Shown: positions 17,149 through 49,395 of the stretch, in pieces
Layout: each line of letters begins with the position of its first letter
How positions within the stretch are numbered: the first letter of the stretch is position 1
Origin: Mitsuaria sp. PDC51
Lineage (GTDB): Bacteria > Pseudomonadota > Gammaproteobacteria > Burkholderiales > Burkholderiaceae_C
NCBI RefSeq assembly: GCF_900113225.1
Contig: NZ_FOZE01000001.1
Span: 1,984,001-2,048,000, forward strand
Direction: 5' to 3'
DNA length: 64,000 bases
Program-made: the position numbers and the translations under genes
The notes under the pieces: model-generated
Databases searched by the model: none
What the model was told of the DNA's origin: nothing
What the model saw: only the letters and a program-made list of their open reading frames with translations

Positions 17149-18585
17149 TCAACGTCCCATCTGGAACAGGTCGAGCGCCGCAGCCACCTCGCCGGCCTGG
17201 CCGCGCAGCCGATCCGAGGACCGCGCCAGGTCCTCGACCATCGCCACGTTCTGCTGCGTGATCTGCTCAAGTTGACGCACGGCGTCGGTCACCTGCGAGA
17301 TGTCGTCGAGCTGCGCCTGCGCGCTGCGCTCGATGTCCTCGATGACGCCGCCGAAGCGCTCCACCGCCGAGAGCGTGTCCGCCATGCTGCGGCGCGCCTC
17401 GCCGGTCTGGCGCGTGCCCGCCTCGACCTTCTCGCCGGAGGCGGCGATCAGCTGCTTGATCTCTCGCGCCGCCACCGTGCTGCGCTGCGCCAGCGCGCGC
17501 ACCTCCGACGCCACCACCGCGAAGCCCTTGCCATGCTCGCCGGCCCGCGCGGCCTCGACCGCCGCGTTCAACGCCAGGATGTTGGTCTGGAAGGCGATGC
17601 CCTCGATCAACTGCGTGATCTCGCCGATGCGGGCCGAGGCCTCGGCGATCGCGGTCATCGTGTCGTTGACCGAGCGCACGTTGCCGTCGCTGCGCCGCGC
17701 CGCCTGGCCGAGCTCCGCGGCGACCTCGCGCGCCCGGTGGGCCGCGTCGCGGTTGCCGCGCACCTCGTCGGTGATCTGGCGCATGCTCGCGGCGGTCTGC
17801 TCCAGGCTGGACGCCTGGGCTTCGGTGCGCCGGGCGAGGTCATGGTTGCCTTGCGCGATCGCGTCCGACACCGCCCGCATCTGGCCGAGTTCATGCTGCG
17901 TGTCCGACACCAGCGCGCGCAGGTTCACCCGCAGTTGCGTCAGCGCGCGATCCAGCGGTCCCGGCGGCGCGGCCGCCTCGGTGACATGAGGACGAGGCGC
18001 GCCCAGGTCGCCGGCCGCGAGGCGCTCCGCCACCCGCAGGCTTGCGCGCAGGGCGGCGCGTCTCTGGCCCACGCGCAGCGCCGAGACGACCCCGACCGCG
18101 AGCCGCCGCCAGAGCGGCGCGCGAAGACGGCCGTGATGCAGCGCGAGTTCGCTCCGACCTGGCCGACCCGGCCGGCCTTCGGCGTTCATCCGCGCATACA
18201 GCGTCTCGGCCGCGCGCACCTGTTCGCGCGTGGGCTGGCTGCGCACCGACAGGTAGCCCGCCGGCTGGCCGTCGCGCAGCAGCGGCGTCACGTTGGCCAT
18301 CACCCAGTAATGGTCGCCATCCTTGCGGCGGTTCTTCACCAGGCCCGACCAGGGTCGTCCGGCTTGCACCGTCGCCCAGAGGTCGCGGAAGGCCTCGGCC
18401 GGCATGTCGGGATGGCGGATCAGGTTGTGCGGCCGGCCGATCAGCTCCTCGCGGCTGAAGCCGCTGACCGCGACGAAAACGTCGTTGCAGTGCAGGATCC
18501 GGCCCTTCAGGTCGGTGGTGGACACCAGCGCGCGGCCTTCGGGGAACGGGAATTCCCGTTGCGTGACCGGCAGATTCGTTCTCAT
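17149..18585 (-). CDS. PAS-domain methyl-accepting chemotaxis protein (Aer-like)
   Basis: A 478-residue receptor. The N-terminal PAS domain (about residues 5-120; LVSTTDLKGRILHCNDVFVAVSGF, SREELIGRPHNLIRHPDMP) is of the Aer type that holds FAD or heme for redox/oxygen sensing. The signalling domain (about 240-478) carries the conserved hairpin AFQTNILALNAAVEAARAGE and GKGFAVVASEVRALAQRS. The middle part (about 150-200, APLWRRLAVGVVSALRV) is only weakly hydrophobic, so I see no clear membrane helix pair. The receptor may be cytoplasmic, unlike typical Aer. The ATG at 18585 is chosen because it starts the PAS-preceding MRTNLPVT segment. Two FNR-like boxes lie upstream. Confidence 0.88.
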   Translation of the reverse strand: MRTNLPVTQREFPFPEGRALVSTTDLKGRILHCNDVFVAVSGFSREELIGRPHNLIRHPDMPAEAFRDLWATVQAGRPWSGLVKNRRKDGDHYWVMANVTPLLRDGQPAGYLSVRSQPTREQVRAAETLYARMNAEGRPGRPGRSELALHHGRLRAPLWRRLAVGVVSALRVGQRRAALRASLRVAERLAAGDLGAPRPHVTEAAAPPGPLDRALTQLRVNLRALVSDTQHELGQMRAVSDAIAQGNHDLARRTEAQASSLEQTAASMRQITDEVRGNRDAAHRAREVAAELGQAARRSDGNVRSVNDTMTAIAEASARIGEITQLIEGIAFQTNILALNAAVEAARAGEHGKGFAVVASEVRALAQRSTVAAREIKQLIAASGEKVEAGTRQTGEARRSMADTLSAVERFGGVIEDIERSAQAQLDDISQVTDAVRQLEQITQQNVAMVEDLARSSDRLRGQAGEVAAALDLFQMGR

Positions 18586-18610
18586 CGATGCGTTCCCTGT
18601 ACGGTAAGTC

Positions 18611-18671
18611 TTGACTTGGATCAAGACACAGCATCGATGAGGTGGTCAGGGCGTCACTTGAGCAAGATCAA
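18611..18671 (-). promoter_or_regulatory. Two FNR/ANR-like boxes upstream of the chemoreceptor
   Basis: On the receptor's strand, TTGAT-CTTG-CTCAA (18671-18658) and TTGAT-CCAA-GTCAA (18624-18611) each match TTGAT-N4-ATCAA at 9 of 10 positions. If the distal box is centred at -41.5, transcription would start near 18623, 38 bases before the ATG, with the second box over the start site. An FNR-type regulator lies at the right edge of the window. Confidence 0.5.
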
Positions 18672-18734
18672 GCCATTGCGGGTTGACCCGGGAGAGGGTT
18701 GGCGCGCCGTGAAGGAGTGCCGGCGCGCCGGCCG

Positions 18735-19499
18735 TCAGTCCAGCGTGACGATCACCGGTGCGTGATCGCTGGGCTTGGGCAGCTTGCGCATCTGACGGTC
18801 GATCGTGCAGGCGGTGACGCGGGGCTTGAGCGCCTCGCTGACGAGGATGTGGTCGATGCGCAGGCCCTTGTTCTTCTGGAAGCCGAGCATGCGGTAGTCC
18901 CACCAGCTGTAGCTCTTGGGCGGCTGCTCGAACAGCCGGTAGGCGTCGGTGAGGCCCAGATCGAGCAAGGCCTGGAAGTGCGCGCGCTCCTGCGGCGAGG
19001 TGTGCGTCTGGCCGACGAAGGCGGCGGGGTCGTAGCAGTCGCGGTCCTCGGGGGCGATGTTGAAGTCGCCCATCAGCACGAGTTGCTTGTGCTGCTGGAG
19101 TTCACTGGCGAGCCAGGCGCGCAGGCCGTCCAGCCAGGCCATCTTGTAGACGAACTTGTCGCTGTCCAGCGCCTGCCCGTTGGGGAAGTAGGCGCCGATC
19201 ACGCGCACGTCGCCGACGGTGCCGGCGATCAGCCGCGCCTGTTCGTCGGCATAGCCGGTGATGTTCTTGACGACGTCCCGGGCGGGCTCGCGGGACAGCA
19301 GCGCCACGCCGTTGTAGGTCTTCTGCCCGAACCACTGGACCTGGTAGCCGGCCTCGCCGATCTCCAGGGTCGGGAACTTGTCGTCGGTGAGCTTGGTCTC
19401 CTGCAGCACGAGCGCATCGACCGGATTGGCGGCCAGCCAGTCGAGCAGCTGCGGCAGGCGCACGGCCAGGGAGTTGACGTTCCAGGTGGCGAATTTCAT
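18735..19499 (-). CDS. xthA: Exodeoxyribonuclease III
   Basis: A 254-residue AP endonuclease/3'-exonuclease for base-excision repair. Motifs in order: MKFATWNVNSLAVRLPQL (Asn), LVLQETKLTDDKFP (metal Glu), GVALLSR, GDFNIAPEDRDCYDP, YSWWDYR, LRIDHILVS and the terminal SDHAPVIVTLD with catalytic Asp-His. The ATG at 19499 matches the family start. A TACGAT -10-like element lies upstream near 19534. It follows the DUF2878/fasciclin/photolyase genes on the same strand, adding a DNA-repair enzyme to that stress-related stretch, but it may have its own promoter. Confidence 0.95.
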   Translation of the reverse strand: MKFATWNVNSLAVRLPQLLDWLAANPVDALVLQETKLTDDKFPTLEIGEAGYQVQWFGQKTYNGVALLSREPARDVVKNITGYADEQARLIAGTVGDVRVIGAYFPNGQALDSDKFVYKMAWLDGLRAWLASELQQHKQLVLMGDFNIAPEDRDCYDPAAFVGQTHTSPQERAHFQALLDLGLTDAYRLFEQPPKSYSWWDYRMLGFQKNKGLRIDHILVSEALKPRVTACTIDRQMRKLPKPSDHAPVIVTLD

Positions 19500-19592
19500 G
19501 GTGCTCGTAGGTGATGAGGCAGGCAACGCCGCATCGTACCCAGTCCTTCGGCGCCGACGCGCCATCGCCCTGCAGACGCCAACTGGAGAGGC

Positions 19593-20129
19593 TCAGGTGG
19601 GCCCGGTGGGTGCCGGCGGGTGCCGCCTGCCCAGGCGCCGGGCCGATTCGATCAACGCCGGGGTCATGACCGCCCAACCCGCGCCCAGCACGGCCAGTGC
19701 GACCGCCGGGTCAGGAAAGCTGCCGGCACCCAGGCGCACGGCGGCCAGGTAGGACAGCGGTCCCCCGATGGCGCCGAGCACCGCCGCCAGCAGCGGCCGC
19801 CCGTGCAGCCACGCGAGCGGCCCCCGGAGCAAGGTCGCGAACAGCGCCCAGAGCGCCAGGATCCAGATCGGCGCCAACTGGGGCAGCGGGCCGGGCGATG
19901 CGTACTGCACCCAGCCTTGCCGGACCATCGCGCTGTCCCACGCGAGGCCGATCAGCATGGCCAGCACCGTCAGCGCCAGATCCGCGGCGCGGGCGGGACT
20001 CACGGCCAGGTGCAGCAGCACGACCGCGGCCACCGCCATCAGGCCCGCCGCGACCTGACCATGCGCCGCGCCGAGCACGCACGCGAACCAGGCGGCCTGG
20101 AACAGGCAGAACTGGACGAGGCCGATCAT
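19593..20129 (-). CDS. DUF2878 multi-pass membrane protein
   Basis: A 178-residue inner-membrane protein with about five or six helices (MIGLVQFCLFQAAWFACVLG, GLMAVAAVVLLHLAV, LALTVLAMLIGLAWD, APIWILALWALFATLLR, LLAAVLGAIGGPLSYLAA, AVALAVLGAGWAVMTP). The GLAWDSAMVRQGWVQY block is typical of DUF2878. GAGGAGG five bases before the ATG at 20129 fixes the start. DUF2878 genes tend to lie with photolyase/cryptochrome and ChrR-RpoE genes in other proteobacteria. Here it is 74 bases downstream of a fasciclin lipoprotein gene. Biochemical function is unknown. Confidence 0.8.
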   Translation of the reverse strand: MIGLVQFCLFQAAWFACVLGAAHGQVAAGLMAVAAVVLLHLAVSPARAADLALTVLAMLIGLAWDSAMVRQGWVQYASPGPLPQLAPIWILALWALFATLLRGPLAWLHGRPLLAAVLGAIGGPLSYLAAVRLGAGSFPDPAVALAVLGAGWAVMTPALIESARRLGRRHPPAPTGPT

Positions 20130-20203
20130 CAGCCGCCTCCTCGATGCACTGCCTGCCTGCATGGCGGCGCCCCTTCCATCGCGGCGCGCCGCGCGCTGCC
20201 GCA

Positions 20204-21160
20204 TCACAGCGGGTTGGGGATCAGCACCTTGTCGACGACGTGAATCACGCCGTTGCTGGCCCGCACGTCGACCGCGACGATCCTGGCCGGCGTCGCGCTG
20301 GAGTCGGTGATGGTGGGCGGCGTGCCGGCGTTGATCACGAGGGACTGGCCCAGCACCGTGGTGACCGGCGTGCCGAAGGGAATGTTGGCCGACAGCACCT
20401 CGCTGCCCAGCACGTGATAGGTCAGCACGTTGGTGAGCTGCTGCGTGCTCAGTCCGTTCACCGTCGAGGCGATGGCCGCGAAGGCGTCATGGGTCGGCGC
20501 GAAGACGGTGAAGGGGCCGGCGCCGCTGAGCGTCCCCTGCAGGTTCGCCTTGACCACCGCGGCGACGAGCGTGTCGAAGGTCGGGTTCACCTGCGCCATC
20601 TGGACGATGTTCAGCAGCCCCGGAGGCACGAGCACCTTGTCGACCGCATGGATGACGCCGTTGCTGGCCATCACGTCGGCAGTCGTCACACGGGCGGTGG
20701 TGAGGGCCGCATCCTGGATGGTGACGCCGCCGGTGAAGCTCAGGCTGAGCGTCGTGGCGTTGCCGTTGAACTTGTACAGCGTCGCCTGCGTGGCGCCGCC
20801 CGCGGCCAGGTCGGCGGCGGCCTTGCGCGTGCCCAGCACGTGGTACTGGAGGATGCCGGCCAGCGTCGATGCGGGCAGGGCCGTGACCATCGCATCGGCA
20901 CTGGCGAAACCCAGCTGCGTCGCCAGTGTCGTGAACGCCTCGTTGGTCGGCGCGAAGACCGTCAGGGACACCGAACCGTCCGCGAGCGTCGACGCCAGCC
21001 CCGCTTTCGTGGCGGCCGCTGTGAGCGCGGTGAAGCCGCCGTTCTGGGCGGCCTGGGCGAGGGTCGGCATCGGCGCGGGATCGTCGTCGTCGCCGCCGCA
21101 GGCGGTGAGCATCGTCGACACCGTCGCGGCCGCGAGCAGCCATTTGAAGAGACGCAGCAT
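20204..21160 (-). CDS. Lipoprotein with two fasciclin (FAS1) domains
   Basis: A 318-residue protein. The signal ends in the lipobox LTAC, followed by GGDDDD. Two FAS1 repeats follow (about residues 32-170 and 175-318), each with the VFAPTNEAF/VFAPTHDAF and YHVLG motifs and ending ASNGVIHAVDKVLVP / ASNGVIHVVDKVLIP. FAS1 proteins mediate adhesion or envelope protection, and in some bacteria are induced by singlet oxygen through ECF sigma factors. An RpoE/ChrR-type promoter (TGATCC-N18-TAAGA) lies 75-103 bases upstream, supporting such control here. Confidence 0.9.
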   Translation of the reverse strand: MLRLFKWLLAAATVSTMLTACGGDDDDPAPMPTLAQAAQNGGFTALTAAATKAGLASTLADGSVSLTVFAPTNEAFTTLATQLGFASADAMVTALPASTLAGILQYHVLGTRKAAADLAAGGATQATLYKFNGNATTLSLSFTGGVTIQDAALTTARVTTADVMASNGVIHAVDKVLVPPGLLNIVQMAQVNPTFDTLVAAVVKANLQGTLSGAGPFTVFAPTHDAFAAIASTVNGLSTQQLTNVLTYHVLGSEVLSANIPFGTPVTTVLGQSLVINAGTPPTITDSSATPARIVAVDVRASNGVIHVVDKVLIPNPL

Positions 21161-21234
21161 GATGGTTCTCCTGGGTTCACGTTATGGCGGTTGTGGCGGC
21201 CCGGACCGGCACGACCGGCCCGGGAGCGCGACGG

Positions 21235-21263
21235 TCTTACGTCGCCCGCGGCGCGGCGGATCA
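21235..21263 (-). promoter_or_regulatory. ECF (RpoE/ChrR-type) promoter for the fasciclin gene
   Basis: On the minus strand TGATCC (-35) is separated by exactly 18 bases from TAAGA (-10), matching the Rhodobacter sphaeroides sigma-E singlet-oxygen promoter pattern as I recall it. The predicted start lies about 65-70 bases before the fasciclin ATG. Confidence 0.6.
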
Positions 21264-21346
21264 TCTGGAAGGGAAATCGTTACGCTGGGTGCGGCGCCCC
21301 ACATTGCCGATGGACAGGGCGATCCGGGCCGATCCGGTGCGATGGC

Positions 21347-22897
21347 TCAGCGGGCGAAGCGCTCGCGCAGCGCCTGCGCCTGGGTTTGGATCGCACGCGT
21401 CTCCTGCGCCGACAGCCGATCGAGGTGGTGGACCTGCGCGCCCAGTCGGGGATGACGCGCGAAGCGCGTGCGGTGGCGCAGCAGGAAATCCCAATACAGC
21501 GTCGTGTACGGACAGGCTTGGGGACCGAGCTTGACGCCGGGCTGGTAGGGGCAACGGGCGCAATGCTGGCCGCCGCTCATGCGCTCGATGTAGGCGCCGC
21601 TGGCGACATAAGGCTTGCTTGTCATCCGGCCACCATCGGCGAACTGGCTCATGCCCAGCGTGTTGGGCAGCTCGACCCATTCGACCGCATCGACGTAGAC
21701 CGCCAGATACCACTCGTGGACCTGCGCGGGCCGCACGCCCAGCAGCAGAGAGAACAGCCCGGTGACCATGAGCCGCTGGATGTGATGGGCATAACCCAGG
21801 CGCAGCGTCTGCCGCAGCGCGTCCGCCAGGCAGGCCAGTTCCGTCTCGCCGCTCCAGTAGAAGGCGGGCAGCGGCTGGTCCGCCGCCAGGGCATTGGCCG
21901 TGGCGAGCGCCGGCATGTGGGTCCAATAGATGCCCCGCACGTACTCGCGCCATCCGAGCACCTGACGGATGAAGCCCTCGACGCTGGCCAGCGGCGCGGC
22001 GCCCGCGCGCCATGCCTGCTCGGCGCGAGCCACCACCTCCCGCGGGCTGATCAACTTCAGGTTCATCGCTGCGGCCAGCTGCGCGTGCCAGAGCCACGGC
22101 TCGCCCGGCCACATCGCGTCCTGCCAGAGGCCGAACTCGGGCAGCCGCTCCGCGATGAAGCGCTCCAGGGCGTGCAGGGCCTGCTCCCGGGTCACCGGCC
22201 AATCGAAGTCCCGCAGCGACCCCGGATGCTCGGGAAAGGCCTGCTCGACGAGTGCGAGCACCTCGCGGGTGATGTCGTCGGGAGGCACGCGAGCGCGATC
22301 GGGCACGAAAGCCGGCCCGCCCGGCGGGAAGGGGCGCTGGTTCTCCGCGTCGAAGTTCCAGCGGTCGCCGACAGGCTCGTCGCCGTTCATCAGCACGCCG
22401 TGATGGCGGCGCATGTGCCGGTAGAACACCTCCATGCGCAAGGTCCGGCGTCCCTGGGAGAAGGCGGCGAACTCCCGCACGGTGCAGAAGAAATGCCGGT
22501 CGTCGCGCAGTTCGATCGCATGCCCGGCGGCCGCCGCAGCATCGCGCAGCGCCTTGAGCACGCGCCAGTCGCCGGGCGCCGTCAGGACCACGCGTCGCGG
22601 CTGCCAGCGCGCCAGCGCGCGCCCGAGTTCACCGGCGAGGCTGCCGGTGTTGCCTGCGTCGTCGAGTCGCACGTAATCCACCGGTCGGCCCAGCCCATGC
22701 AACGCCCGGGCATGGTGCCGCATCGCGGAGAGGAAGAGGGCGATGCGGATCCGGCTCGACCAGACATGCTGGGATTCCTCGCGCACCTCCGCCATCCAGA
22801 CGAGATCGCATTCGGGATCGAAGTCGTCGAAGGCGGAGCTGTGCAGGTCCAACTGGTCTCCCAGCACGATGACCAGCGAGCGCACGGCGCCCTTCAT
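21347..22897 (-). CDS. Cryptochrome/photolyase-related FeS protein (FeS-BCP, PhrB type)
   Basis: A 516-residue flavoprotein. The N-terminal alpha/beta domain begins LVIVLGDQLDLHSSAF and the C-terminal FAD domain holds EGFIRQVLGWREYVRGIYW, RLMVTGLFSLLLGV and NTLGMSQFADGG. Four Cys suited to a [4Fe-4S] cluster are seen: one in TELACLAD and three in QHCARCPYQPGVKLGPQACPY. These are marks of prokaryotic (6-4) photolyases and cryptochromes of the PhrB class. It would repair UV lesions or act in light signalling. A second ECF-like promoter and a strong hairpin lie in its leader. It heads the fasciclin-DUF2878 stretch. Confidence 0.92.
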   Translation of the reverse strand: MKGAVRSLVIVLGDQLDLHSSAFDDFDPECDLVWMAEVREESQHVWSSRIRIALFLSAMRHHARALHGLGRPVDYVRLDDAGNTGSLAGELGRALARWQPRRVVLTAPGDWRVLKALRDAAAAAGHAIELRDDRHFFCTVREFAAFSQGRRTLRMEVFYRHMRRHHGVLMNGDEPVGDRWNFDAENQRPFPPGGPAFVPDRARVPPDDITREVLALVEQAFPEHPGSLRDFDWPVTREQALHALERFIAERLPEFGLWQDAMWPGEPWLWHAQLAAAMNLKLISPREVVARAEQAWRAGAAPLASVEGFIRQVLGWREYVRGIYWTHMPALATANALAADQPLPAFYWSGETELACLADALRQTLRLGYAHHIQRLMVTGLFSLLLGVRPAQVHEWYLAVYVDAVEWVELPNTLGMSQFADGGRMTSKPYVASGAYIERMSGGQHCARCPYQPGVKLGPQACPYTTLYWDFLLRHRTRFARHPRLGAQVHHLDRLSAQETRAIQTQAQALRERFAR

Positions 22898-22932
22898 GGC
22901 GATGACGGCTTGGCAGGCATGGCGGCGGCGCG

Positions 22933-22962
22933 GTGTCCGGGCGCCTTCAGGCGCCCGGACAC
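22933..22962. repeat. Strong leader hairpin before the photolyase gene
   Basis: GTGTCCGGGCGCC pairs perfectly with GGCGCCCGGACAC across a 4-base loop. It lies between the proposed promoter (22992-23020) and the start codon at 22897, so it would form in the 5' leader of the mRNA. No U-tract follows it. Confidence 0.7.
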
Positions 22963-22991
22963 GGGAAGCGTCCCTTCGTTGTTCCGCGTCG

Positions 22992-23020
22992 ATATACGGC
23001 GATCGCGACGCCTTGGATCA
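22992..23020 (-). promoter_or_regulatory. Possible ECF promoter for the photolyase gene
   Basis: On the minus strand TGATCC is followed after 18 bases by TATAT. The -35 and the spacing equal those before the fasciclin gene, but the -10 fits TAAGA poorly, so this is weaker. Confidence 0.35.
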
Positions 23021-23037
23021 ACGCGGCGAGCGGCCGT

Positions 23038-24789
23038 CTACCGCAGGCGCTCCATCACGCTGCGCTGATCCGGCCATTCCTGGTGCGAGGCGGCGCGGTG
23101 GTTCTCCACCTCGGTGAAGGTCTTGCGCCGCTGTTCGTCGGTCTTGCGCATCGCGCGCGCGATCGAGTCGCGCGTCGTGTCGATCAGCGTGGTGACGGTA
23201 TTGCTGTCCTCGACGGTGGTGGCGTCGTAGTTGCCGCCGGCGCGGTCCAGCGTGTAGGTGCGCGACTTCTGGAAGCTGGCGCTCAGCGTCTCGGTCTGCG
23301 TCTGCGTGATCGAGCGGCCGCCGGTCGCCGCGTTGGGCCGCTCGCCGGTTGTCTGGCCGATCCGGTACTCGGCATGGCCGGCCTCCTGGACGCTGCCGAT
23401 GCGGCTGGTCCGCTGCGAATCGGCGCTGAAGCTGGCCTGGAAGTCCGCCAGGCCGCTCTGCAGCGATTGCGTCTGCGTGCGCAACCCGTCGCTCATCGGT
23501 GCCATCGCGCTGGGGTCGAGGGCGTCCACGGCGCCGCCCTTCGCGGCGGTCGTGGCCTTGGCGGCAGTGCCGGCGCCGCTTGAACTCCCGGTATTCGCCG
23601 CGTGGCGGACCGCCAGCAGCGAGGCCGCATCCTGCGGACGCCCACGCCCTTCGCCGGCATCGGAACGCCGGGTGTCATCGACGCGTCGCGTCTCGTCTGG
23701 ATCCGCGGGCGGAGCCTGCAGCTGCCGGAAGGCGTCCTTGAAGGACTTCGTCATCGCCGCGTCCGCGTGGCTGCGTTCGGCCGCGGCATCGACCTGCTGG
23801 AGCAACTGGTCGATGGCCGACCAGCGCCTGCCGCTCGCCGGCGCGCCGGTGGTCGCGCGGGACGTGGCGGCGGCGTCCACCTCGAGCGCCATCTCGCCGC
23901 TGGTGGAGCGCAGCGACAGCGACTTCTTCTCGGCGCCCAGTTGCAGCGAGAACGAACGCAACTGGCCGGGCCGGTCGGCCGAGGCGTCGGGATGGTCGAT
24001 GCGCAGGTCCAGGCCGGTCAGCACGCCGTCGGCGTCGAAGCCCGTCAGGCCGGACAGGTCCAGCGTCGGCACGCCGTCGCCCAGGCCCTCCAGGGCACGG
24101 TCCAGGCCGTCGGACAGCCGGGCGAGCGCGTCGCGCTCGGCGCCGCTCAGCGGCCCGGAGCTCGAAACCTCGACCTGCAGGCCGCGCGTGCCGCCCGATT
24201 CGCCACTGTTCACGCCGATCTTGAGCTCGACGGTTTGTCCGGAACGGGTCTGCACCTTCAGGCTCACCGTCGTGGCGTTGGTCGCGACGCCGGACAGCGC
24301 CTGCTGCTGCAAAGCGGCGGCCGCGGCGGCGGGGTCGGCGCTTCCGGCGCCCTCCGCGTCTGGGGTGCTCGCGGCCGGATCGGTCGCGCCGGCGTCCGGG
24401 AGCGCCGGCACGACGTCCGCCAGCGTCTGGCGGTAGCGCTCGCCGGTGTCGGCCAACTGCTTGAGCAGCGCGCCGCCGAGTCCGCGCCAGCGGTCGGACA
24501 GCGTGTGGGCTTCCTTGCCGCTGTTGCGCGACATCAGCTCGCTCAGGCCGTCGTCACCGGCCTTGGCCCAGACGCGCCGCGGTCCGGCGCCGGGCGCCGA
24601 GGGCCGCGCATACACGGCGGCGTCGGTGGTCGCGGCGTCCAGCGTCACGCGCGTGCCCGCGGTTGAAGCCGCCGGGGAGGCCGCGTCGGCGGCGCGCGAG
24701 GACACGCCCGCGGGGCGGAACGAGGCGGCCGCGCGGCGGGCGGCCAGCCGGTCCAGCAGGCCGGGGCCCGCCGAGGCGATGAAGTTCAT
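23038..24789 (-). CDS. Ala-rich protein of unknown function under a sigma-28 promoter
   Basis: A 583-residue protein that I do not recognise. There is no clear signal peptide or membrane helix; it starts MNFIASAGPGLLDRLAARR. The N-terminal half is Ala/Ser/Thr-rich and disordered-looking. A folded central part (about 165-315) contains VSLKVQTRSGQTVELKIGVNSG, GLQVEVSSSGPLSGAERDALARL and FSLQLGAEKKSLSLRSTSGEM. The C-terminal part is helical and polar (SQRTSRIGSVQEAGHAEYRI, TRDSIARAMRKTDEQRRKTF). GGGAGG precedes the ATG. A near-perfect FliA promoter upstream suggests expression with late flagellar or chemotaxis genes, so a motility role is inferred. No flagellar gene is adjacent. Confidence 0.8.
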   Translation of the reverse strand: MNFIASAGPGLLDRLAARRAAASFRPAGVSSRAADAASPAASTAGTRVTLDAATTDAAVYARPSAPGAGPRRVWAKAGDDGLSELMSRNSGKEAHTLSDRWRGLGGALLKQLADTGERYRQTLADVVPALPDAGATDPAASTPDAEGAGSADPAAAAAALQQQALSGVATNATTVSLKVQTRSGQTVELKIGVNSGESGGTRGLQVEVSSSGPLSGAERDALARLSDGLDRALEGLGDGVPTLDLSGLTGFDADGVLTGLDLRIDHPDASADRPGQLRSFSLQLGAEKKSLSLRSTSGEMALEVDAAATSRATTGAPASGRRWSAIDQLLQQVDAAAERSHADAAMTKSFKDAFRQLQAPPADPDETRRVDDTRRSDAGEGRGRPQDAASLLAVRHAANTGSSSGAGTAAKATTAAKGGAVDALDPSAMAPMSDGLRTQTQSLQSGLADFQASFSADSQRTSRIGSVQEAGHAEYRIGQTTGERPNAATGGRSITQTQTETLSASFQKSRTYTLDRAGGNYDATTVEDSNTVTTLIDTTRDSIARAMRKTDEQRRKTFTEVENHRAASHQEWPDQRSVMERLR

Positions 24790-47869: not shown

Positions 47870-48192
47870 GTCGTTTCTCCTTGTGATCCGGATAAGAAAA
47901 CCCAACGGCCGCGGAGCCGGTCCCACCGATCCGCGCGGATGTCGCCCGCGCGGCGGTGGTCCGTCCGTGGCCGGCGGATGAGTTGCGCGCGCGCCGCGCC
48001 GGAGTTCCAGCGCACGCGCGGCCGACGGTGATCGCCAGGGGCAAGCGCGGCGCCCGCGCGATGCCTTGATCCCAGTCAGCGCAACCCACCTATAACTGCT
48101 AGTCGGTGGTCAGGGATGACAGGTGTTTGCTATTTGGTGTCGAGTGGGCGATTCCTAGCATGAAGCCTTGTTCTTCCACTCCGCGGAAAGTC
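47870..48192. other. Gene-free divergent region ompA-like / EAL-HDOD
   Basis: A 323-base region between divergent genes with no coding support. The right part is unusually AT-rich for this window. It carries a likely promoter for the EAL-HDOD gene and a weak FNR half-site at 48066-48079. The left half contains only GC-rich sequence in which I see nothing definite. Confidence 0.6.
48066..48096 (+). promoter_or_regulatory. Sigma-70-like promoter for the EAL-HDOD gene
   Basis: TTGATC (48066-48071), 19-base spacer, TATAAC (48091-48096); the spacer is slightly long. Predicted start near 48103, about 90 bases before the chosen ATG (48193). Confidence 0.4.
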
Positions 48193-49395
48193 ATGTCCCG
48201 CCCCTCCGATACCGGCCGCATCCCCGTCAGCGATGCGTCATCGACTTCGCCGCCCGTCCCGTCGCGCGAACGCTCCAACTCCCCCGCACCCCACCTTCCT
48301 CACGTCCCCCACGTTCGTTACGCCAGCCAGCCGATCATCGATCGCACGGGCCGCGTCGTCGCGACCGAATTGCTGTTCCGCTGGAACGGCGATGACGGCC
48401 CGGTCGGCCCGGAACTCGGTGCCCACGCGACCGCCGCCGTGTTGTCCAACGCATTGATCGATGGCGCGCTCCTGACCAGCGCGACCGCCGCGGAGCATCC
48501 GCTGGGGGACCTGCTGGTCAACATGGACGGTCGCACGCTGATGGGTCCGATCGCCGAGGCGATGACACCCGACGTCGGCGTCATCGAGCTGCTGGAGACG
48601 GTCGAGGTGGACACAGCCCTGATGCGGCGCATCGAGGACCTTCATGGCCGGGGCTACCGCTTCGCGCTGGACGACATCGTCAGCCTGGACGATCCCCGGT
48701 GGGCGCTGGCCCCCTGGGCCCAGTTCGCCAAGATCGACATGCTGGGCCTCGCGCCGCTGGCGCTGCGCGCCCTGATCCGCCATGCCCATCAGCTTGGCCT
48801 GGCCGTCATCGCGGAGAAGGTCGACAACGATGAAGCCCACCAGCGCGCGCTGCGTGCCGGTGCCGACTTCTTCCAGGGTTATGGCATCGCGCGCCCCGCG
48901 ACGGTCGCCGTGCCGGCATTGCCGGAGACCGATGCCCGCGTGGTCGCCCAGCTTCTGCAACTGGCCGCCTCGGGCGCCTGCGCCGCGACGCTGGCCATGG
49001 TCGCGGGCCTGCATCCCTCGCTGGTCGCGCGGCTGCTGCGCGTGCAGGAGATCCATGCCGCGCAGAGCGTGGCCACCTCCGAGTCGCTGGCGGAACTGCT
49101 GGCCTCGCTGCCTCGCCCCGTCCTGGTCGCGTGGTTGTCGGTGTTCGGCCTTGCCGCCATCCACGGCCGGGAGCATCAGCTCAGCGCCCTCCTGCGCGAG
49201 GAGCTTGCGCAAGGCCAGCGACGCCTGAAGGAGCAGGGGCGGGTGAGATCGCCGACCGACGCCGACCGGGCCTCGTTCTACATGTGCCGGCAGCTGCTGC
49301 GCATGCGCCTGCGGCAAGGTGGGCGCAACGGAGCGTCGGCCGCAGCGAAGCCGGTCATGCGGCGCGCCGGCCCGCTGGAGACGCCTCGCCTGTGA
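48193..49395 (+). CDS. EAL-HDOD regulatory protein (YuxH-like)
   Basis: About 400 residues; ATG 48160 is an equally possible start. The EAL-like part (about 35-240) has RYASQPIIDRTGRVVATELLFRW, where EAL is replaced by ELL, then LVNMDGRTLMGP, IELLETVEVD, GYRFALDDIVSLDDPRW, AKIDM and VIAEKVDNDEAHQRALRAGADFFQGYGIARP. Several catalytic acids of active c-di-GMP phosphodiesterases are changed, so it may only bind c-di-GMP or proteins. The C-terminal HDOD domain (about 245-370) has LLQLAASGACAATLAMVAGLHPSLVARLLRV. It lies next to a type I secretion/two-component locus, hinting at surface-attachment control. Confidence 0.85.
   Translation: MSRPSDTGRIPVSDASSTSPPVPSRERSNSPAPHLPHVPHVRYASQPIIDRTGRVVATELLFRWNGDDGPVGPELGAHATAAVLSNALIDGALLTSATAAEHPLGDLLVNMDGRTLMGPIAEAMTPDVGVIELLETVEVDTALMRRIEDLHGRGYRFALDDIVSLDDPRWALAPWAQFAKIDMLGLAPLALRALIRHAHQLGLAVIAEKVDNDEAHQRALRAGADFFQGYGIARPATVAVPALPETDARVVAQLLQLAASGACAATLAMVAGLHPSLVARLLRVQEIHAAQSVATSESLAELLASLPRPVLVAWLSVFGLAAIHGREHQLSALLREELAQGQRRLKEQGRVRSPTDADRASFYMCRQLLRMRLRQGGRNGASAAAKPVMRRAGPLETPRL

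Follow-up and report, generated by a model that had tools for sequence, protein, structure and literature searches.

The best-described relatives of the system considered here are pairs of an RpoE-type ECF sigma factor and the anti-sigma factor ChrR (ECF11). In R. sphaeroides, the holding and release of RpoE by ChrR have been published (PMC6852236), and the RpoE regulon table includes the fasciclin gene RSP_1409, phrA, cfaS and RSP_1090/1091 (PMC7074977). In R. capsulatus, cryB adjoins rpoE-chrR (PMC7074977). ChIP-seq of the P. syringae sigma factor PSPTO_1043 gave the consensus TGATCC-N16-CGTA for this RpoE/ChrR (ECF11-type) sigma factor, and singlet oxygen and tBOOH both elicit a response of the PSPTO_1043/1042 pair (PMC5507510). 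In the locus described here, judging from its sequence, a photolyase gene and a FAS1-DUF2878 unit very probably constitute two transcription units of such an ECF11 (RpoE-ChrR) regulon.

Genes and promoters in the window

The window is the whole stretch of DNA that was analyzed, 64,000 nucleotides long (G000:C6:1984001-2048000), from a genome (G000) of 5,852,107 bases in 6 contigs. Genes were called with a codon-usage caller trained on the window and not taken from annotation. The photolyase gene (21347-22897, minus strand) encodes an FeS-type enzyme of the DPRP family (Pfam PF04244, 244.5 bits) with CryB (3zxs) and PhrB (4dja) among its best solved relatives. The gene product has the DPRP domain and the four cysteines (aligned with chain 9hnk and read by eye) that mark the FeS-BCP/CryPro type; we take these cysteines to be the ligands of the FeS cluster. 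The gene for a two-domain FAS1 (fasciclin) lipoprotein (20204-21160, minus; two stretches matching PF02469; lipobox LTAC, read by eye) comes next, followed by the genes for a DUF2878 membrane protein (19593-20162, minus, with the start possibly at 20129; PF11086, 142.1 bits) and exonuclease III (18735-19499, minus; TIGR00633, above its cut-off). Upstream of the photolyase gene lies a gene for a 583-aa protein (23038-24789, minus) that had no Pfam or NCBIfam match and a homologue of which was seen next to the photolyase gene in G010 only.

The first-pass annotation had described TGATCC-N18-TAAGA before FAS1 and TGATCC-N18-TATAT before the photolyase gene, and both were found at those places on the minus strand (TGATCC at 21263-21258 with TAAGA at 21239-21235, and TGATCC at 23020-23015, respectively). 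Read as the published consensus, the two sites are TGATCC-N16-CGTA at 21238-21263, with a predicted start at 21228 and a leader of 68 nt for FAS1, and at 22995-23020, with a predicted start at 22985 and a leader of 88 nt for the photolyase gene, both on the minus strand. The shared -35 and equal N18 spacing were thus as described, but the photolyase -10, which had been called weaker, counts as intact because both sites fully match the published TGATCC-N16-CGTA. TGATCC-N17..19-TAAGA occurred once in the window and in none of 100 shuffles, and TGATC-N18..20-TAAG occurred at six sites in the genome, with FAS1 the only candidate among them. TAAGA was rejected as the required -10 since it misses the rpoE and photolyase promoters; CGTA is the better fit. 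Only one further site in the window came within one mismatch: TGATCC-N16-CCTA at 48067 (plus strand), whose predicted start is 91 nt upstream of a called gene (48193-49395).

Alignment of six FAS1 orthologues revealed a conserved block, GCACNNAGNGTAAC (21279-21292, minus), upstream of the FAS1 -35. The block was kept in all six orthologues, in one with a mismatch, and a reading of this stretch as plain spacer was rejected. A search of 16 genomes for the block gave six matches, five of them at the FAS1 place, against 22 for the reversed-pattern control, so it is the shared place of the block and not the number of its matches that is notable. A CRP-like reading of the block (TGTGN-N6-GCACM) was rejected as mere resemblance.

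The RpoE-ChrR pair and its motif in the genus

The genome contains a single ChrR match (C6:1864067-1864723, minus; TIGR02451, 178.1 bits vs. a cut-off of 124.5) and a sigma factor gene directly upstream of it (C6:1864847-1865530). The pair spans C6:1864067-1865530, with the rpoE start some 141 kb from the photolyase promoter; the ECF11 sigma factor/ChrR pair that the first-pass annotation had expected outside the window, as the head of a remote regulon, is therefore present in the same genome, and the proposal passed this check. The best of 15 solved matches to the sigma factor was R. sphaeroides RpoE (2q1z chain A, 155.7 bits; next, 84.5), and the best solved relative of ChrR was R. sphaeroides ChrR (2z2s, 135.1 bits). 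The sigma factor was 94% identical to that of R. chitinivorans, and the best-matching records came from Roseateles and close kin, which makes G000 a probable Roseateles. The ChrR homologue has a cupin-like domain (Cupin_7 match), scored 169.6 against the equivalog model NF051881, which is below the cut-off of 300, and kept all eight zinc ligands listed for ChrR (PMC6852236) in its alignment with the solved protein, read by eye. An RpoE-type sigma factor, an adjacent ChrR, an autoregulatory promoter and, as core targets, amine oxidase-type flavoprotein, DUF1365-like and cyclopropane-synthase genes were all found, in keeping with an ECF11 system.

The rpoE gene is preceded by TGATCC-N16-CGTATCAG, and TGATCC-N16-CGTA is common to the rpoE, FAS1 and photolyase promoters. 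In the 5.85 Mb of the genome, exact TGATCC-N16-CGTA has three matches, which are these three promoters. With N15 spacing, six matches were detected, all inside called genes, and with N17 none; the reversed-pattern control for the N15-N17 search gave one. When the first base was freed, 15 matches were detected vs. four for the reversed control, ten inside genes and five intergenic. The five intergenic matches all precede genes of a kind known from RpoE/ChrR regulons, with distances from predicted start to start codon of 0 nt (rpoE-chrR), 17 nt (amine oxidase-DUF1365-CMAS), 23 nt (CMAS-DUF1295-DUF6134-DUF2177), 68 nt (FAS1) and 88 nt (photolyase). The promoters of the Amino_oxidase-DUF1365-CMAS and CMAS-DUF1295-DUF6134-DUF2177 units each have one mismatch. 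The DUF1365 protein is presumably the counterpart of RSP_1090.

Among the 16 genomes of the genus, a sigma factor orthologue (at least 271 bits) and ChrR above its cut-off were detected in 14, and neither was detected in G014 or G015. TGATCC-N16-CGTA was present before the sigma factor gene in 14 of 14 rpoE orthologues and before FAS1 in six of six orthologues (81-100% identity). Alignment of the six FAS1 promoters showed that all ten motif columns but only two of 16 spacer columns were invariant. No site was found in the 420 nt before the match of weak FAS1 relatives (37-44% identity; L094, L095, L096, and L098; L097 was left out), a stretch that may fall short of the gene starts.

In a scan of about 1.5 kb upstream of each photolyase, seven of 11 photolyase units carried the motif. 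It directly preceded the photolyase gene in G000, G010, and G004 and preceded an upstream lipocalin gene in G012, G001, G003 and, with one mismatch, G008. The lipocalin of G012 was tested against Pfam, and those of G001, G003, and G008 share the stretch RYAGSWYE. The other four photolyases had no site with at most one mismatch in the scanned region. The FeS photolyases of the genus (L084-L087 and L207) fall into two clades: a fully supported branch separates the seven that have an RpoE-type site from the four that have none. Photolyases without a site occur in two genomes that have RpoE-ChrR (G009 and G006), and a MerR-type gene lies near the siteless photolyases of G014 (Pfam-tested) and G006 (by sequence only). 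The RpoE-ChrR pair and the conservation in the genus together support the original proposal that the FAS1 and photolyase promoters are of RpoE/ChrR type.

Accidental matches to the motif do exist. Genomes G014 and G015, which lack RpoE-ChrR, still had three and two matches, respectively, and both matches in G015 stand before unrelated called genes (28 and 7 nt). Eleven matches each were detected in G003 and G008, several before unrelated genes; G013, which has RpoE-ChrR, had a single match, before rpoE. Single matches therefore need conservation as backing. These accidental matches, and the ten relaxed matches inside genes of G000, are what favors the explanation that the two matches in the window arose by chance and that ordinary promoters serve genes that merely sit together. 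All three exact matches in the genome, however, precede rpoE, FAS1 or the photolyase gene, the FAS1 motif is kept in all six orthologues with two of 16 spacer columns invariant, and a search of 18400-23300 in the window revealed no sigma-70-like site. Chance is thus extremely improbable, and the initial view that two identical -35s with equal spacing exceed chance expectation was supported.

A second alternative, that a different ECF sigma factor with overlapping specificity does all or most of the reading of two genuine promoters, is also very unlikely. Six further, weaker sigma factor matches are present in G000, and G007 and G009 each have a further ECF sigma factor gene, with a product beginning MT[TP]PS (L175 and L181, respectively), that carries TGATCC-N16-CGTA and an ATG exactly at the predicted start. 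The only sigma factor gene of G000 preceded by the motif, however, is the one adjoining chrR, and the paralogues of the congeners (35-41% identity) have no counterpart above 31% in G000. Reading by the RpoE of the RpoE-ChrR pair remains the preferred explanation.

The motif was also observed 161-364 nt before a gene starting MDVISHFAARYER (L154 in G002, L168 in G003, and L196 in G008). We assume that this gene is PrkA-like, and it is a possible member of an extended regulon.

DUF2878 follows FAS1 in G010, G001, G003, and G008. In G004, the DUF2878 gene is about 8 kb away from FAS1 and is preceded by a TGATCC-N16-CGTA of its own, with a predicted start 149 nt before the called gene. DUF2878 very likely belongs to the RpoE-ChrR regulon and is probably co-transcribed with FAS1. 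The four consecutive same-strand genes of the window were confirmed as placed, but the inclusion of exonuclease III as a regulon partner is doubtful: it is adjacent in two of the six FAS1 loci of the genus (G000 and G010 only), so it is probably a chance neighbor and not a regulon member. A single co-regulated photo-oxidative repair block of all four genes would agree with their common strand, the 93-nt gap, the lack of a terminator-like site on the minus strand in 18400-23300 and the DNA-repair function of exonuclease III. Because genes other than exonuclease III follow DUF2878 in G001, G003, G008, and G012, and because its adjacency is so restricted, we consider the four-gene block unlikely.

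The start codon of rpoE

The rpoE ATG of G000 is located at the predicted +1 of its own promoter (C6:1865530-1865565; L007 about 2964-2999, minus), as placed by the same rule that was used for FAS1 and the photolyase gene; the predicted leaders of the latter two are 68 and 88 nt vs. 0 for rpoE. In 14 of 14 congeners, rpoE has an in-frame ATG 12-13 nt downstream of the C in CGTA. In a wider sample, 80 loci were kept of 103 relatives found, and 70 of these had ChrR downstream. Start codons were counted in the 45 of these that also had the motif (up to two mismatches, CGTA intact) within 450 nt; the ten loci lacking ChrR downstream and the 25 lacking the motif were left out. An ATG was present at offset 9-16 in 41 of the 45 motif-bearing rpoE-chrR loci and was in frame in all 41, although in one of them (L257) a stop occurs two codons after the ATG. 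Of 180 nearby upstream 8-nt windows, 27 contained an ATG. With a stricter rule (offset 11-14, in frame, no stop), the ATG was present in 36 of 45 loci, or in 17 of the 23 clusters formed at 70% identity. The position-locked start codon was seen in betaproteobacterial and alphaproteobacterial loci.

The coincidence of the ATG with the predicted transcription start in all 14 congeners and most sampled loci suggests a leaderless sigma factor mRNA. If so, translation of the sigma factor would start with no Shine-Dalgarno site, whereas the mRNAs of FAS1 and the photolyase have predicted leaders, and the rpoE feedback loop would be tied to conditions that favor leaderless translation. The mapped transcription start of S. 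oneidensis rpoE2 is at an A (PMC4336711). No paper on leaderless rpoE-chrR was found by title among the openly licensed PMC papers listed.

A leaderless rpoE was not accepted as settled because four observations argue against it. There was no third-position excess of change in rpoE codons 2-19 among the 14 congeners. Of 24 Burkholderiales sequences, 22 use TTG for the leucine of the LxIV stretch (rpoE codon 32; L32 of P0001), and among the 14 leucine columns that never vary in the genus alignment this one alone is TTG throughout. This near-constant use of TTG makes an internal start possible, and codon 32 is possibly a second start of rpoE. The solved R. sphaeroides RpoE chain aligns from its residue 10 with residue 49 here. 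In B. japonicum EcfF (ECF16), the mapped start overlaps the annotated ATG and the authors favored a later start codon (PMC3420878). The combined reading, that transcription from the ECF11 autoregulatory promoter yields an rpoE mRNA with no leader or nearly none and that the internal TTG of Burkholderiales may give a second, shorter sigma factor isoform, is tentative and stands at slightly less than an even chance.

The predicted regulon and known systems

In the proposed regulon, ChrR, a zinc anti-sigma factor, would keep RpoE inactive until RpoE is freed by an oxidative signal, which by analogy would be singlet oxygen or an organic hydroperoxide. Freed RpoE would read the TGATCC-N16-CGTA promoters of its own operon and of two adjacent fatty-acid-modification operons and, 141 kb away, would also transcribe the genes for the photolyase, with a presumed role in DNA repair, and for the FAS1 lipoprotein with DUF2878, with a presumed role in the envelope. 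What the DNA itself shows is a sigma/anti-sigma pair and promoters that are rare in the genome and conserved in the genus; from these we infer that RpoE binds the promoters. The FeS photolyase and the FAS1 lipoprotein are probable direct RpoE targets.

The inducing signal, taken here by analogy, may not be light-related. No match to a photosynthetic reaction-centre gene was found in G000. A reaction-centre match was detected in six of the 16 genomes, four of which have RpoE-ChrR, whereas RpoE-ChrR is present in ten of the ten genomes without such a match, and the idea that the regulon tracks phototrophy was therefore rejected. The RpoE-ChrR pair of S. maltophilia serves superoxide, not singlet-oxygen, tolerance (PMC11832516), and rpoE transcripts increased under carbon starvation in a transcriptome of R. 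depolymerans, where the role of rpoE was left open (PMC10037100).

The R. sphaeroides RpoE-ChrR system (ECF11) resembles the one described here in its RpoE and ChrR homologues, its fasciclin and photolyase targets, and its motif, TGATCC-N15-GCGTA before Pos19 (PMC5036791). It differs in that its photolyase target is phrA while the FeS-type cryB is listed in the RpoHII regulon (PMC7074977), whereas here the FeS type carries the motif, and in that no reaction-centre gene was found in G000. In the gammaproteobacterium S. oneidensis, the RpoE2-ChrR system has TGATCC/CGTA before rpoE2, the ybgA-phrB-cfa unit and a "photolyase-related protein" (SO_4169), but no fasciclin is among the regulon rows listed (PMC4336711). 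The P. syringae PSPTO_1043/1042 system has the same consensus and a phrB-containing core locus but other extended targets (katG and glyoxalase; PMC5507510). A fasciclin under RpoE-ChrR control in Azospirillum brasilense has been tied to flocculation (Dubey 2021, cited in PMC10949492). Because RpoE/ChrR control of fasciclin, photolyase and cyclopropane-synthase genes has been published for other organisms, the regulon is of a known kind; here it would be a compact, five-promoter RpoE-ChrR regulon in a betaproteobacterial genome without a detected reaction-centre gene. The regulon, the promoter and the kinds of targets are already known, and the arrangement of an FeS photolyase with FAS1-DUF2878 in this genus is a further instance of them.
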